NCBI GenBank assembly: GCA_028821235.1
Contig: JAPPGV010000035.1
Span: forward strand, 1 to 61,846
Direction of reading: 5' to 3'
Source: a bacterium
GTDB lineage: Bacteria > Actinomycetota > Acidimicrobiia > Spongiisociales > Spongiisociaceae
DNA length: 61,846 bases
A program made the position numbers and the translations under genes. This document shows positions 8,688-59,459 of this stretch, piece by piece. A model generated the notes under the pieces. That model searched no databases, was not told the DNA's origin, and worked only from the letters and a program-made list of their open reading frames with translations. How positions within the stretch are numbered: position 1 is the stretch's first letter; each line of letters begins with the position of its first letter.

Positions 8688-9995
8688 TCACTTGGCCAGC
8701 CACCGGGCGCGCTCGGTCACCTCCGCCGTCACCTTGTCAACGTCCACGGTAAGCACCCGGCCCTCGCTGACCACCTGCTCCCCGCCCACCCAGACCGAGC
8801 GGACTGCCCGGGGCGACCCCGACCACACCAGGCGCGACACCGGGTCGTCCTCGTCCGTCACGACCGGATGCAGAGCCGACTCTGACGGTGACAGCTGCAC
8901 CATGTCGGCCCGGGAACCCGGCTCGAGCCGGCCCAGGTCGGAGCGCCCGATGGCGTCGGCGGCCCCGGCCGTGGTCATGTGGAGCGCCTCGTGGGGTGGC
9001 ATGAAGGCTGCGTCCCCCCGGTGGATCCGGGCCAGCCGGATGGCGGTGCGCATCTCCTCGAACAGGTCGAGCCGGTGATGAGAGGCCGGACCGTCGGTGG
9101 CGATCCCCACCTTGATCCCGGCCCGGATCATCTCTTCGACCCTGGCCAGGCCCGAGCCGTGCTTGGAGTTGGAACAAGGGCAATGGGCCGCCCCCACTCC
9201 GTGGCGGCCGAATATCTCCATGTCCTCGTCCGACAGCCACACGCAGTGGGCGGCCAGCACCCTTGCCTCCAGCATGCCCAGCGACTCCAGGTAGGCGGGC
9301 GCCGACAGGCCACCGGACAGCTCCCGCACCGCCGCGTCCTCCCACTCCTGCTCAGCCACGTGGATGTGAACCAGCATGTCCTGCTCGCGGGCGATCCCGA
9401 TCACCATCTCCAGGCACTCCCGTGACACCGACCAGGCGGCGTGAGGACCCAGGCCCACTTCGATCAGCTCGTTTGATGCCCACCGGTCCCGGGTGGCGAC
9501 CATCTCCTCCAACTGCTGCTGCCAGGTGCCCATCAGGTCGAGCTGGGCGTCCTCGATGATCGGAGCCGCCACCACGCACCGGAGGCCCGCCTCGGCAGCC
9601 CCCTGAGCGACCGACTCCCCGAAGAAGTACATCTCGGATGAGGTGGTGACGCCGTTGGAGAGGAGCTCGGCTGCGCCCATCAGCATCCCCACCCTCACGT
9701 CATCGGGGGTCAGGCGCCCCTCCCGGGGCCACATGACCTCGTGGAGCCACCGATCCACCGGCAGCCCCTCTCCGGCGCCGCGCAGCAGGATCATCGGGGT
9801 ATGGGCGTGGAGGTTGACGAGTCCGGGCATCAGGATGCCGTCGATCCGGTGTACCGGCGCCCCGGCCTGGTCGGGCGCCTCCGAAGCGGGGCCGGCCCAG
9901 ACCACCCGTCCCCCCTCCACGTCCACCACCCCTTGCGAGATGGGGGTCCGCCCCTCGGACATGGTTATCAGCAGATCGGCTTGGTAGCGGTCCAT
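8688..9995 (-). CDS. Amidohydrolase, MTA/SAH (5'-deoxyadenosine) deaminase-like
   Basis: A 435-residue metal-dependent amidohydrolase of the TrzN/SsnA/MtaD group. Visible: NLHAHTP with the paired metal-binding His at 63 and 65, HIHVAEQEWED (about 208-218), LAAHCVWLSDEDM, and TDGPASHHRLDLFEEM, whose Asp is the catalytic metal ligand. Family members deaminate S-adenosylhomocysteine, 5'-methylthioadenosine, 5'-deoxyadenosine or triazines. It is the first gene of the minus arm, 47 bp from the divergent mtnA-like gene. That pairing supports deamination of a 5'-modified adenosine to the inosine form before phosphorolysis. Guanine or cytosine deaminase activity is less likely. Confidence 0.85.
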   Translation of the reverse strand: MDRYQADLLITMSEGRTPISQGVVDVEGGRVVWAGPASEAPDQAGAPVHRIDGILMPGLVNLHAHTPMILLRGAGEGLPVDRWLHEVMWPREGRLTPDDVRVGMLMGAAELLSNGVTTSSEMYFFGESVAQGAAEAGLRCVVAAPIIEDAQLDLMGTWQQQLEEMVATRDRWASNELIEVGLGPHAAWSVSRECLEMVIGIAREQDMLVHIHVAEQEWEDAAVRELSGGLSAPAYLESLGMLEARVLAAHCVWLSDEDMEIFGRHGVGAAHCPCSNSKHGSGLARVEEMIRAGIKVGIATDGPASHHRLDLFEEMRTAIRLARIHRGDAAFMPPHEALHMTTAGAADAIGRSDLGRLEPGSRADMVQLSPSESALHPVVTDEDDPVSRLVWSGSPRAVRSVWVGGEQVVSEGRVLTVDVDKVTAEVTERARWLAK

Positions 9996-10042
9996 CTACT
10001 CGCCCCCGGTCAGGTGGAAGTGGCCCATGTAGCATAAAGGTC

Positions 10043-11095
10043 ATGCAGCAACTCGGTGACCGTCCGCTCGACTGGATAGACGGCGGCGTCTCGATGGTCG
10101 ATCAGACCAGGCTTCCCGACCATTACGAGGTGATGCGGATCGAAACAGTCCCCGACATGGTGGCCGCCATCCGCCGCCTGTCCGTACGGGGCGCCCCCGC
10201 CATCGGCGTGGCCGGAGCCCTCGGGGTGGCGCTGGCCATCCGGGCCCACGGGACGTCCGGACCCGACTTCGACCGGGCGATCCTCTCCCTTCGGGAAGCC
10301 CGACCCACCGCGGTGAACCTGGCCCGCATGGTGGACAGGGTGGCCCCCCTCGCCGCGCAGGGCCTGGACCGTGTGCTGGCCGAGGCGCTCGCCATCCGGG
10401 ACGAGGAGATCGCCGCATCCGTGTCCATGGGAGAGTACGGGGCCGATCTCGTGACCGGGCTGGTCACCGAGCGGGCAGCATCCCGGGCGATGACGATCTG
10501 CAACACCGGGGGGTTGGCGACCATCGAGCGCGGTACCGCACTGGCGGTGATACAGACCTTGCACGAGCGGGGCACGCTCGCGGAGGCTCTGGCGCTCGAG
10601 ACCCGGCCGCTCCTCCAGGGCGCCCGCCTCACCGCCTGGGAGTTGGCCCGCATGGGCGCTCCCCACCGGATCCTGGTCGACTCGGCCGCCAACTTCATGC
10701 TGGCCCGGCGTCAAGCCGACGTGGTGCTCACCGGCGCCGACCGGATCGCCGCCAACGGGGACACGGCCAACAAGATCGGAACCTTCTCCCTGGCTCTCGG
10801 CGCCCGGTACGCCGGGGTCCCCTTCATCGTGGTCGCCCCGGAGTCGACCGTGGACATGGACACTCCCGGGGGTGACGCCATCCCCATCGAGGACCGGGAC
10901 GCCGGAGAGGTGGTGTCCGTCCGGGATCGTGCTACCGCTCCTGCGAATACCGACGCCGCCAACCCCGCCTTCGACATCACGCCGCACGCCCTGATCACCG
11001 CGATCGTGACCGATCGGCGGGTGGTCAGGATTGATCGAGGTGATAGCCTCCGGTCGGTGCCGCTCGGGGAGCTTCGCCGACCGGCCACTGAGTAG
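10043..11095 (+). CDS. mtnA: S-methyl-5-thioribose-1-phosphate isomerase (MtnA-like)
   Basis: A 350-residue member of the MtnA/eIF2B-alpha family that converts an aldose-1-phosphate to a ketose-1-phosphate without ring nucleotides. Visible: RGAPAIGVAGALG (about 50-62), CNTGGLATIERGTA carrying the catalytic Cys, and TGADRIAANGDTANKIGT with the catalytic Asp. Length and motifs fit MtnA, but DrdI-type 5-deoxyribose-1-phosphate isomerases are close relatives. No other methionine-salvage genes (mtnB, C, D, E) are in the window, so the ketose product probably goes to the aldolase fusion at 4268-6241. Confidence 0.9.
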   Translation: MQQLGDRPLDWIDGGVSMVDQTRLPDHYEVMRIETVPDMVAAIRRLSVRGAPAIGVAGALGVALAIRAHGTSGPDFDRAILSLREARPTAVNLARMVDRVAPLAAQGLDRVLAEALAIRDEEIAASVSMGEYGADLVTGLVTERAASRAMTICNTGGLATIERGTALAVIQTLHERGTLAEALALETRPLLQGARLTAWELARMGAPHRILVDSAANFMLARRQADVVLTGADRIAANGDTANKIGTFSLALGARYAGVPFIVVAPESTVDMDTPGGDAIPIEDRDAGEVVSVRDRATAPANTDAANPAFDITPHALITAIVTDRRVVRIDRGDSLRSVPLGELRRPATE

Positions 11096-22964: not shown

Positions 22965-24158
22965 TCAGGACACGCGGTCGTTGAGGAGACGGGAGGTGTC
23001 CCGGGCTATCAGGGACTCCTCGTCGGTGGGGATCACCCATATGTCAAGGGATCCGGTGTCGGCGGAGATACGCCTCTCCCCCTCGCCACGGTTGCGGGCG
23101 GGATCCACGACCAGGCCCAGCGTCTCCACACCGCTCAGGATGCGACTACGGACCTCATGGCTGTTCTCCCCGATGCCGCCGGAGAAGACCACCCCGTCGC
23201 ATGGCGCGACCTGTACCAGGAAGGCGCCCAGATACCGGCGGACCCGGTGGGCGAAGGCCTCCACGGCCAGGGCGGCGGCTCGATCGCCGGCACGGGCGCG
23301 GTGGGCAACCCGGCGGAAGTCGGACGATATCCTGCTCAGGCCGAGCAAGCCCCCCTCTGTCTGCAGACCTCGCCGGACTTCGGAGACGGGCAACCCCGCC
23401 TCCAGTAGGTGGAACACCACCGCCGGATCGATGTCGCCGCTCCGAGTGCCCATCACCAATCCCTCCAAAGGCGTCATGCCCATGGAAGTGTCCACCGCCT
23501 TCCCGTCCCGGATCGCGCATGACGAGGCGCCGGCGCCGAGATGGAGGGTCACCAGGTTGGGCCGGGGGTTCTCCAGCAACCGGGCGGCTCGCTCCGCCAG
23601 GTACCGGTGGCTGATGCCGTGGAACCCGTACCGCCTCACCCCGAAGTCCCGCCACCAACGCTCGGGGACCGCGTACCGGTAGGCGTGCGGGGGAAGCGTG
23701 GAGAAGAAGGCGGTGTCGAACACGGCCACCCCCAGGGCTCCCGGCAGGAGCTCGCGGGCGGCCCGGACACCCGCCAGGTTGGCCGGGTTGTGGAGCGGGG
23801 CCAATGCGCCCAGGGACTCGACCTCCTCGATGACCGCGCGGTCGATCACCACGGACTCGGAGAAACGGTCACCTCCATGCACAACCCGGTGGCCCACCCC
23901 GACGATCTCGGACGGGTCGCCGATCGGCGGTGGTGACCCCCACCCGGCCAGGGCCTTGACGATCGCGGCTACCCCCTGCCGGTAGTCCCCGACCTCTATC
24001 TCTGCTTCGAACTCCTGGTCGCCTGCGGCGTGGAGGTGTCTCGGCCGTTCCCCTCCTATACCGTCGATGATCCCGCCCGCGAGCAGGTTCTCCGCCCCCG
24101 GCCCGTACAGCTTGTACTTGATCGACGAGCTGCCGCAGTTGATGACCAGTACGAGCAC
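22965..24158 (-). CDS. ackA: Acetate kinase
   Basis: A 397-residue ASKHA kinase interconverting acetyl phosphate + ADP and acetate + ATP. Visible: LVINCGSSSIKYKLY (2-17), GHRVVHGGDRFSE, FDTAFFSTLPPHAYRYAVP, RRYGFHGISHRYLAERA, LHLGAGASSCAIRDGKAVDTSMGMTPLEGLVMGTRSGD and the C-terminal VFSGGIGENS. No phosphotransacetylase (pta) is adjacent. It follows the UGSC selenoprotein gene by 29 bp on the same strand, which suggests that the acetyl phosphate it uses may come from that system (inference). Confidence 0.95.
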   Translation of the reverse strand: MLVLVINCGSSSIKYKLYGPGAENLLAGGIIDGIGGERPRHLHAAGDQEFEAEIEVGDYRQGVAAIVKALAGWGSPPPIGDPSEIVGVGHRVVHGGDRFSESVVIDRAVIEEVESLGALAPLHNPANLAGVRAARELLPGALGVAVFDTAFFSTLPPHAYRYAVPERWWRDFGVRRYGFHGISHRYLAERAARLLENPRPNLVTLHLGAGASSCAIRDGKAVDTSMGMTPLEGLVMGTRSGDIDPAVVFHLLEAGLPVSEVRRGLQTEGGLLGLSRISSDFRRVAHRARAGDRAAALAVEAFAHRVRRYLGAFLVQVAPCDGVVFSGGIGENSHEVRSRILSGVETLGLVVDPARNRGEGERRISADTGSLDIWVIPTDEESLIARDTSRLLNDRVS

Positions 24159-24187: not shown

Positions 24188-24709
24188 CTAGCGTTGCCCG
24201 GCCGTCAACGCGGCGAGGATGGCGGGAAAGGCCGCTTCGGCGAGAGCCCGCATCTCCTCGTCGGTACGCTGCTGGATCGGATGGTCGGTGAGCACCCGGC
24301 GGGGGTGCATGCCAAGGGCCTTGCCTTGTGCGTCGACCGCCTGCGCGAAGCGGTCAGAGGCCACGAACACGCCCGGCACGCCCAGGTCTTCCAGATCGAC
24401 TATGTCGTGCACACTGCACGACGCGCAGGAGCCTCAGTCGGCCAGGGCTTCGATCACCGCCCCGCATTCGGCGGCGATCTGGCGGCGCAGGTCGAGCGGC
24501 GCCGGCTTCGAGAAAGTGGGCTTGCGGTAATGGCGCACCGCCACCCCCATCTCGGTCAGCAACTCGTCCAGCCTCCTGATGAACACGTCACCACGAGGCT
24601 TGGAGATATCCAGCAGGCCGACCGTTCCGGTCGCGATGTCGGCGGGACGAGGGCTGATGGGCCGCTCCCCGGTGGTTCTCTCGCTGGTCGGATCCAACAG
24701 TGTCGTCAT
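24188..24709 (-). CDS. UGSC-family selenoprotein (in-frame TGA = Sec)
   Basis: A 173-residue protein if TGA at 24434-24436 is read as selenocysteine; otherwise two unexplained short frames remain. Residues 1-91 lead to ALAD, then U92-G-S-C-A-S-C-S-V-H-D-I, then 70 more residues with the same coding character. The UGSC motif names a selenoprotein family first noted in ocean metagenomes, where some members have Cys in place of Sec. A perfect 8-bp hairpin begins 11 nt after the TGA, as expected for a bacterial SECIS. It starts 10 bp after the thioredoxin-like gene and ends 29 bp before ackA. A UxxC plus CxxC pair suggests redox chemistry; the substrate is unknown. Confidence 0.88.
24404..24422 (-). 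promoter_or_regulatory. Bacterial SECIS-like hairpin after the Sec codon
   Basis: In the mRNA, GTCGTGCA and TGCACGAC form a perfect 8-bp stem closed by a GTG loop. It begins 11 nt after the UGA, putting the loop about 20-22 nt downstream, within the spacing usual for SelB-recognised SECIS elements. It lies wholly inside the coding sequence, as bacterial SECIS elements do. Confidence 0.8.
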
Positions 24710-24718
24710 GAAGCACCT

Positions 24719-26161
24719 CTAATGGTCGATCGCCACGGTGGTTATCTCCGAGCCGGCCCTGCCACCGACCCAGCCCGAGATTATCGCCGAGAATCCTCCC
24801 GCGTCCCCGCCCGCATGGACGAACCACAGACCTTCGGGGCCGAACTTCGGAATCTCCTCCCGCCGGTCCGCCAGCCAGGGCGGCATGCCCTCGGCTGCCC
24901 CGCCCGCCCCGGCCACCATCTCCGAGGTCGGGAGCGTGAGCAGCGAGTGGATCTCCTCGCCCAGACGGACCTTCGTCCAACCCGCCCGCCGAAAGAGCCG
25001 GGCATGTTCGGGGGAGACTACGACGATCGCTTCGGACATTCCCGCCAGCTTCGGGTGCGCGACCATCCGCAGCTGCAGCGCCAGGGTCCTGGCGAGCGAC
25101 TCGGGAGTGCGGGACTTCTGGTCGACCACCTCGAGCGGTCCGTGGGCGGCGAAGAGCGTAACCGTGGACTCCTCGGGCGAGAAGCCCCGTTCGACCGCCA
25201 GAGACTCCCAGGGAGAGCCTTCCTCGTCCTCCGGGAAACAGAACGCGAGCTTGCTCGGGCTGCCGAAGGTCGCCTGATCGACTCCACCGGGACGGGCGCC
25301 GCCGACGTTGCGGACCACCAGGTTGAGAGCCCGCCCGATGGTGAGGTTGGCCCGGTTGCCCTGGCCGAGCACGTTGACTCCCGGGTTCATCCCGATCTGC
25401 CTCCGCACCGGCCCGTTGACGATCAGCACCGGCCCTGAGAAATAGGTGGTGGCCGACACCCCGTGGATGTTGAAACCGCGCCCGGCCGCCGCCTTCACCG
25501 CGGCCAGCACCACCGGCAGGTATTCGGGCCGGCAGCCGGCCATCACCGCGTTGATAGCCACCTTCTCCACCGTGCACTCGGCCAGATCGGGTGGGAGGGT
25601 GCATAGCACCTGGGCGGGAGGAAGATCGGTGCCCTCCAGCATCCGCGCCACCCGCTCTTCGGTCGGAGGAACGACCGGAAGGCCGTCCGTCCATCCCCGG
25701 GCGAAGGCGGCCTCCACGGGATCCTCGGCAGTCCCGAGTTCGATGCGCTGCGACAACATGGGATAGGGCGAATGGCGCCGGAGAAGCCTCTGGTAGTTGT
25801 CGGGCAGCATCGTGTCCGAGCCGCATCCAGGCCGCTGTTCCGGAAGTCCGGCCCCCAGGCCGGTCGCTCCGGTCACGCGTTCCCATCCGGAGCGGTACCA
25901 CCCGGCCTGCTCGTCGGCCACCTCACCGTCCTCTATCCGGTACACGGTGGGGGTCGTCTCGGTATCGAGACGCCACGAGATGTCCAACTCCCCGTCGTGG
26001 ACCACCTCGAAACCCTCGGGAAAGCGGGCTTGATCCTGGGAGACGATCACCACGCCGTCCTCCCGCCCGGCGAGTTCAGCCAGCACGGGTACCACCAGAT
26101 GGCAGGTCTCGCAGTCATCCTTGACCACCACCAGCAATCCGTCAGCGATGGGCAGGCTCAT
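24719..26161 (-). CDS. Thioredoxin-domain partner of the UGSC selenoprotein
   Basis: A 480-residue protein. Residues 1 to about 95 look like a thioredoxin fold: LLVVVKDDCETCHLVVPVLAELAG carries CxxC (CETC), followed by VVIVSQD and TTPTVYRIEDG with the cis-Pro-like TP. The remaining part is a larger domain I cannot name; it contains GWTDGLPVVPPTEERV, ECTVEKVAINAVMAGC, SGPVLIVNGPVRRQIGMN and an EAIVVVSPEHARLF segment. ATG 26161 follows GGAGAGGA; the frame is open another 30 codons upstream without support. It is the first gene of a trx-UGSC-ackA unit, and its CxxC is the likely electron donor to the Sec protein (inference). Confidence 0.72.
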   Translation of the reverse strand: MSLPIADGLLVVVKDDCETCHLVVPVLAELAGREDGVVIVSQDQARFPEGFEVVHDGELDISWRLDTETTPTVYRIEDGEVADEQAGWYRSGWERVTGATGLGAGLPEQRPGCGSDTMLPDNYQRLLRRHSPYPMLSQRIELGTAEDPVEAAFARGWTDGLPVVPPTEERVARMLEGTDLPPAQVLCTLPPDLAECTVEKVAINAVMAGCRPEYLPVVLAAVKAAAGRGFNIHGVSATTYFSGPVLIVNGPVRRQIGMNPGVNVLGQGNRANLTIGRALNLVVRNVGGARPGGVDQATFGSPSKLAFCFPEDEEGSPWESLAVERGFSPEESTVTLFAAHGPLEVVDQKSRTPESLARTLALQLRMVAHPKLAGMSEAIVVVSPEHARLFRRAGWTKVRLGEEIHSLLTLPTSEMVAGAGGAAEGMPPWLADRREEIPKFGPEGLWFVHAGGDAGGFSAIISGWVGGRAGSEITTVAIDH

Positions 26162-28902: not shown

Positions 28903-29265
28903 CTACCCCGTATCGCCGCGGAGTTCTCGCTCGAGGTGGTCAAGGAACCCGGCCGGATCCTTGCGCAGGGAGGCGATCAACTTCCTGTCCGCGGCCACGC
29001 GCCAGGTTCCCTCATCCCCCACCAGCACGGCCGGTAGGGACCCGGCCGCGGCTAGCTGTAACTCCGTGGCCATGTCCCGGTGGATCAACTCGATCGGCAC
29101 GGCGCTCGCCCGGCAGGCTTCGCGCCATGATCGCTTGCCGAAGGCGTTCCAACCGTGGGTCAGTTCGCACAATCCGCAGTCGCTCCTGCCCAGGACCTTG
29201 TCCACGGAGTAACGCAGCTCACCCGACATCCCGCCGTCCGCGTTGTAGATTCCGACGACCCTCAC
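28903..29265 (-). CDS. Uncharacterised protein with CxxC motif
   Basis: A 120-residue protein that I recognise only as a conserved-looking hypothetical. It starts VRVVGIYNADGGMSGELRY, contains GRSDCGLCELTHG (CxxC about residues 28-31) and later PAVLVGDEGTWRVAADRKLIASL, which ends like a thioredoxin-fold edge. GTG 29265 follows AGAGGTG at 5 nt; the frame is open 26 codons further but without a site. It is convergent with the methyltransferase. A redox or metal-binding role is possible from the Cys pair. Confidence 0.68.
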   Translation of the reverse strand: MRVVGIYNADGGMSGELRYSVDKVLGRSDCGLCELTHGWNAFGKRSWREACRASAVPIELIHRDMATELQLAAAGSLPAVLVGDEGTWRVAADRKLIASLRKDPAGFLDHLERELRGDTG

Positions 29266-29479
29266 TTGGCACCTCTTGAAGACGCAAGTCTTGAACCTGC
29301 CCTGTCCTCGAAACGATAGGCGCCGCCATGGCCATGAGTTCAACGCCTGGCCAATCCGCTCGACAACTTCGAGGCGCGACCGGGCCTCCCGGCATAGAAT
29401 CGCGACATGGCCGGCAGGGGATCCGCGTCGCTTTGCTGACCGTCAGCGTCCGTGAGTCAGCAACGTGAAGGAGGAGAGG

Positions 29480-57530: not shown

Positions 57531-57697
57531 CAGTGGTCTGCCTGTGAAATGGCGCCGTGATATGTGCCGCCGGCGGCGTTCCTCGCAAGGCCCGCTGAGG
57601 AAGGCGTACCCGCAGCGGTACGTTGAGGAGGCGGAACGCAGCGAGGGGCGTCGCTGGCACGCAGAGCACGGCGGAGGTTTTGCAGGTAGACCACTAG
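57530..57697. mobile_element. 168-bp MITE-like inverted-repeat element, copy 1
   Basis: The ends CAGTGGTCTGCCTG and CAGGTAGACCACTAG are near-perfect inverted repeats. The roughly 60-bp core (TTCCTCGCAAGGCCCGCTGA and following bases) matches copy 2 (59290-59459) in reverse orientation with only scattered differences. It has no coding capacity. It sits exactly between nuoD and nuoC: its right end includes the nuoC stop TAG, and its left end abuts the nuoD ATG. Confidence 0.85.
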
Positions 57698-59289: not shown

Positions 59290-59459
59290 CCTAGTGGTCT
59301 GTCTGCGAAACAACCGGGTGCTCTGGCGGCCATCGGCGCCCCGTCGCTTCGTTCCGCTTCCTCAACGTACCCTGCGGGTACGCCTTCGTCAGCGGGCCTT
59401 GCGAGGAACACCGCTGCCGACGCTATACCGCACCGCCATTACACAGACAGACCACTAGG
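59290..59459. mobile_element. 170-bp MITE-like inverted-repeat element, copy 2
   Basis: Perfect 16-bp terminal inverted repeats, CCTAGTGGTCTGTCTG (59290-59305) and its complement (59444-59459). The core matches copy 1 (57530-57697) in the opposite orientation and contains the palindrome GTACCCTGCGGGTAC. It has no open frame of its own and lies in the divergent intergenic region between nuoA and the phosphatase gene. Confidence 0.85.

Follow-up and report, generated by a model that had tools for sequence, protein, structure and literature searches.

A UGSC-family gene with a predicted selenocysteine codon, its conserved partner gene, and a relationship to the selenocysteine domain of GrdB and PrdB

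GrdB and PrdB are the selenocysteine (Sec) subunits of the glycine/sarcosine/betaine and proline reductases, and the Sec of glycine and proline reductases serves a reductive cleavage that is coupled to thiols. In the literature that we searched, UGSC proteins have never been joined to the glycine reductase family beyond both being listed, and the name 'UGSC family' was not found. UGSC has been predicted as a selenoprotein family since 2008, and ranks among the commonest selenoprotein families of aquatic metagenomes (PMC2398784); it is also listed as a selenoprotein family elsewhere (PMC5029168, PMC9312934, PMC13188914). Because the family was already catalogued, the gene described here is less of a surprise than an earlier, sequence-only reading of this DNA had claimed. 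That reading also held selenoproteins to be uncommon in high-GC actinobacteria, which is wrong, as Actinobacteria are one of three selenoprotein-rich phyla (PMC1794560).

The gene occupies positions 24188-24709 (minus strand, stop codon included) of the window, the whole stretch of 61,846 nucleotides that was analysed. With TGA taken as Sec (U), the frame running from 24709 down to 24188, on a strand that the sequence-only reading had left unstated, translates into 173 residues, the length given in that reading. Its only in-frame stop is the TGA at 24436-24434, codon 92, which would place Sec at residue 92 in the context ...VIEALAD-U-GSCASCSVHDIV..., with ALAD-U-GSCASCSVHD as the wider setting of the motif. 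The family motif, with Sec or Cys first, is present as D-TGA-GSC. In a Pfam scan PF24696 covers residues 4-169 (E 7.5e-43; 147.1 bits against a cut-off of 25), and in an NCBIfam scan NF041046 (UGSC_fam) reaches 147.9 bits, its cut-off being 125, so that the protein lies above the curated cut-offs over the full domain. Since a single family profile runs over both halves and across the TGA, the two short frames that the sequence-only reading had joined at ALAD-U-GSCASC are one gene rather than a chance junction, and its assignment to the UGSC family stands. The result confirms a gene of a type that standard gene callers truncate or split. Compared with the known family (PF24696; NF041046, 'UGSC family (seleno)protein'; PMC2398784), in which Sec is commoner than Cys, the Sec position and the UGSC motif are the same and nothing essential differs; here the partner begins with a thioredoxin domain and, within the genus, UGSC adjoins an acetate kinase gene.

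Homologues agree at the Sec position. Bacterial genomes were scanned for UGSC relatives, and of more than 400 the best 80 were taken (57-95% identity), representing Acidimicrobiia, other Actinomycetota, and deltaproteobacterial and myxococcal MAGs. All of these best 80 have TGA at the Sec site (80/80), as do 81/81 aligned genes at the position corresponding to 24434-24436 (minus strand), and distant paralogues have Cys (TGC or TGT) at exactly this site; the question raised earlier, whether Cys or Sec occupies the position in homologues, is thereby answered with both. Seven further genomes of the genus have a full-length UGSC copy with one TGA apiece, an eighth copy is interrupted by a contig end, and the ninth genome gave no copy. 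More broadly, the gene was detected in 67 of 198 genomes of a class sample, often several times per genome, with one TGA in most matches and with TGC or TGT in those uninterrupted copies that were inspected.

Directly after the TGA lies a putative bacterial SECIS element within the coding sequence, an 8-bp hairpin with a GTG loop (24404-24422, minus strand). The hairpin, GTCGTGCA-GTG-TGCACGAC, starts 11 nt 3' of the TGA, at 24422-24404, where the sequence-only reading had noticed it. Its folding energy is not above that of shuffles of GC-rich sequence (z -0.2), and its conservation is therefore used as evidence instead. Across the 81 aligned genes the synonymous positions of the hairpin codons are frozen: the serine at +7, inside the hairpin, is AGT in 81/81, a codon chosen for 11 of the 326 serines that ten genes of this window encode, and the serine at +2, outside the hairpin, is written with five codons. 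Covariation is also seen, in that one hairpin pair occurs as G-C, G-U, and A-U, and the pairing is lost in slid registers. At the codon corresponding to this hairpin serine, AGT is absent from the Cys paralogues. The gene thus has the conserved hairpin that is looked for in a selenoprotein gene, placed just 3' of its UGA and with G at the beginning of the loop.

The machinery for Sec insertion, for which the sequence-only reading had proposed a search, was recovered in part. The source genome, a draft in 162 contigs that was searched by family, contains a tRNA-Sec (77 bits, anticodon TCA) and a selD (L015, G000:C28:48646-49566) whose catalytic site, GGG-U-ASKL, contains an in-frame TGA; SelD is here itself a selenoprotein, as well as being required for making selenoproteins. 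The family search found neither selA nor selB in this draft. When the selA/selB locus of a close relative was used as query, however, its flanks matched as far as base 1 of contig C69 and, on the other side, base 10032, with which contig C155 ends, and the absence is for this reason best read as an assembly gap between these two contig ends; the 5.4 kb between the flanks in the relative comprises selA and most of selB. Mutually adjacent selA and selB genes are present in 9/9 genomes of the same genus. We therefore rejected the absence of selA and selB as a refutation of Sec decoding, the locus falling in a contig gap, and a more general lesson is that a draft genome without these genes may reflect such a gap. 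In other genomes selB is the gene immediately before the partner-UGSC pair and points the same way; six of these genomes (L118, L105, L108, L090, L094, L084) also have selA ahead of selB, giving a consecutive selA-selB-partner-UGSC series on one strand, so that in six loci the Sec machinery is linked to the UGSC-partner module.

Taking together the TGA in 80/80 (best 80 of more than 400 relatives), the Cys paralogues, the tRNA-Sec, and selD, we consider it very likely that the in-frame TGA is decoded as Sec, as had been proposed, and that UGSC and its partner form a module. A pseudogene or sequencing error, with a broken gene whose TGA stems from a misread or mutated Cys codon (TGC or TGT), might be suspected in a draft of 162 contigs, TGA being one base from either codon. 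This account is refuted by conservation across assemblies, the same TGA standing in 80/80 independently assembled relatives (the best 80 of more than 400), which span several phyla; it is further opposed by the frozen downstream hairpin and by Cys paralogues that lack AGT at the frozen serine codon, and we give it next to no chance. Each half of the gene is an open reading frame, which is what would be expected if the TGA were a genuine stop separating a 91-residue N-terminal protein from a 74-residue protein that starts at a GTG after it. Such termination is nevertheless highly improbable, as it would split the UxxC motif and the first start codon of the second frame comes after that motif, inside the conserved domain; moreover, the family profile and the AlphaFold2 (AF2) fold require both halves, the Cys paralogues are continuous, and the genome has a tRNA-Sec. 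A full-length product would likewise result if UGA were read as some other amino acid, through near-cognate read-through or an altered code. Against this, TGA is also an ordinary stop, one UGSC relative terminating in it, and the Cys of the paralogues at this site, the tRNA-Sec, and the TGA-containing selD leave the idea scarcely credible.

A further aspect of this protein is its relationship to the reductases mentioned above. The UGSC profile scored 39.7 against GrdB, compared with a maximum of 25.1 in 200 column shuffles, and UGSC together with its Cys paralogues gave an hhalign probability of 94% and a score of 57.3 against GrdB plus PrdB (shuffled GrdB, at most 19-25); in the printed UGSC-GrdB alignments, Sec stands opposite Sec. 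At the sequence level, homology of UGSC to the C-terminal Sec domain of GrdB/PrdB is thus shown by profile comparison. In common with GrdB/PrdB (PF07355), it has the Sec-bearing C-terminal domain, the U-x-x motif, and the downstream E..G[IV]P and HP motifs, and in GrdB homologues of related genomes the TGA is followed by GTGTR-GxT...IE..G[IV]P...HP.G. Unlike GrdB, UGSC is a free 173-residue protein without the N-terminal ~330 residues, and unlike that of GrdB/PrdB, its partner matches nothing in Pfam. The Pfam scan gave no PF07355 match for UGSC, in which the region N-terminal to Sec is missing, and none of GrdE/PrdA, GrdA, or GrdC/GrdD was among the genes examined beside UGSC. Judged from these alignments, UGSC belongs with the Sec domain of the GrdB/PrdB family, without being a GrdB.

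The AF2 model of UGSC (pLDDT 90.9) predicts five strand-helix units in an alternating alpha/beta arrangement without a thioredoxin beta-hairpin, and puts Sec92 where strand 3 ends and helix 3 starts. Matches of the model in the PDB (Foldseek/VIA) were to unspecific alternating alpha/beta folds, none of them decisive, and the PDB held no sequence relative of UGSC or GrdB. The homology to the GrdB/PrdB Sec domain, the alternating alpha/beta fold modelled by AlphaFold, and the conserved module with an unannotated partner are apparently new; neither the GrdB link nor the constant partner was found in the literature searched, although both may have been published elsewhere.

The same genome also encodes a GrdB-like selenoprotein (L062, G000:C151:19693-20727) with TGA in VGST-U-GTGTRSG; the Pfam GRDB model ends at its Sec codon, so that annotation would truncate it. 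In addition, short PrdB-like genes with TGA in V-P-[VG]-U-P-[VM]-C-H (L063-L068) are found in many genomes of the order and are likely further selenoproteins.

The partner gene (24719-26161, minus strand) stops 9 nt short of the start codon of UGSC and encodes a protein of 480 residues, P480, its start being inferred. Residues 1-100 have a thioredoxin fold (Z 9.6) in which a CxTC motif, here CETC, is invariant; they share both fold and CETC with thioredoxin-fold proteins, a topology absent from the predicted UGSC model. A domain of ~370 residues follows, and P480, this domain included, has no Pfam or NCBIfam match. Class I fumarase was considered for the C-terminal domain, and the matches, weak and of low TM, were not trusted. 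A P480 relative stands beside UGSC in 75 of the 80 loci (best 80 of more than 400), nearly always directly upstream, and three of the five loci without a partner are near contig ends. Distant Sec and Cys paralogues adjoin a relative of the C-terminal ~370 residues, the thioredoxin part being unmatched, and in one genome UGSC and a P480-type C-terminal domain form a single fused reading frame that continues through the TGA. The P480-type domain may be the 'Unknown_1' fusion domain reported with UGSC (PMC2398784). Two UGSC-partner fusion genes, each with the TGA inside, were seen within one locus (L159:2664-4325 and 9090-10754), where their neighbours are NMT1-type binding proteins, an ABC ATPase and permease, and an FAD oxidoreductase of the thioredoxin-reductase type.

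On the other side of UGSC, 29 nt downstream on the same strand, lies an acetate/propionate kinase gene (22965-24158, minus strand), which is kept only in the nearest relatives. An acetate kinase adjoins UGSC in 8 of the 80 loci (best 80 of more than 400), all from close relatives, and because it is limited to these eight closest loci, it was dropped as a general functional clue. A first clustering of the neighbouring genes suffered from shadow ORFs, the DNA being high in GC. Beside the paralogues are importers, amidohydrolases, a nitroreductase, and luciferase-like monooxygenases, which point weakly to the catabolism of imported compounds. Elsewhere in the window, a genus-conserved gene (28903-29343, minus strand) encodes a 146-residue protein with a CGLC motif; it has no match in Pfam or NCBIfam and is possibly thioredoxin-like.

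The Sec-based, thiol-coupled cleavage of glycine and proline reductases provides the closest working model for UGSC. The hairpin just 3' of the UGA very likely directs the ribosome, SelB, and Sec-tRNA-Sec to insert Sec at residue 92. In the model, UGSC would then serve as the catalytic subunit, carrying the Sec, of an enzyme with two parts, perhaps a physical complex, the ~370-residue domain of P480 being the other part. The selenolate of Sec92 may attack a small molecule held by P480, resulting in reductive cleavage, after which the invariant Cys95 could form a selenenyl-sulfide bond with Sec92; perhaps this bond is then reopened by the CETC thioredoxin domain of P480, supplied in turn by thioredoxin reductase. 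By analogy, we offer this thioredoxin-coupled Sec chemistry on small molecules tentatively, at slightly less than an even chance. It is tempting to speculate further that UGSC and P480/P370 constitute an unrecognised class of Sec/Cys-dependent, thioredoxin-coupled reductases related to the GrdB/PrdB Sec domain, a class that would have radiated in Acidimicrobiia into multiple paralogues within a genome, each for its own substrate, and whose substrate would be bound by a new partner instead of the pyruvoyl-based one, a suggestion about which we are almost evenly divided, with doubt a little ahead. With the GrdB/PrdB link and the constant partner, what was an orphan motif becomes a two-component reductase that can be put to the test.

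Two other functions deserve consideration. As proposed in 2008, UGSC might be a general thiol-disulfide, thioredoxin-like redox protein rather than a substrate-cleaving subunit; the UxxC motif and the thioredoxin domain on the partner would suit this role, and a Trx-like fold was suggested for the family (PMC2398784). The AF2 model (pLDDT 91), with five strand-helix units and no thioredoxin beta-hairpin, and the profile homology to GrdB/PrdB argue otherwise, and the occurrence of several paralogues in a genome, all accompanied by large conserved partners, fits substrate-specific enzymes better, so that we regard this role as unlikely, albeit a genuine contender. Alternatively, UGSC and P480 might act in the manner of glycine reductase, generating acetyl or propionyl phosphate from which the adjacent kinase would form ATP, an idea that draws on the closeness of the kinase on the same strand and on the homology of UGSC to GrdB. 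The restriction of the kinase to eight close loci among the best 80, and the absence of GrdC/GrdD and PrdA beside UGSC at the loci seen, make this improbable as an account of the enzyme. For the substrate-cleaving reductase that we favour, the adjacent acetate kinase could provide a connection with acetyl or propionyl phosphate in this genus and its nearest kin only.

Finally, the window contains two copies of an element of ~166 bp (59293-59458 and 57532-57695) on opposite strands, 83% alike, with terminal inverted repeats AGTGGTCTGTCTG/CAGACAGACCACT. The element is MITE-like and has about 40 more matches elsewhere in the genome; in a relative, the matching locus has a copy close to its selB end.
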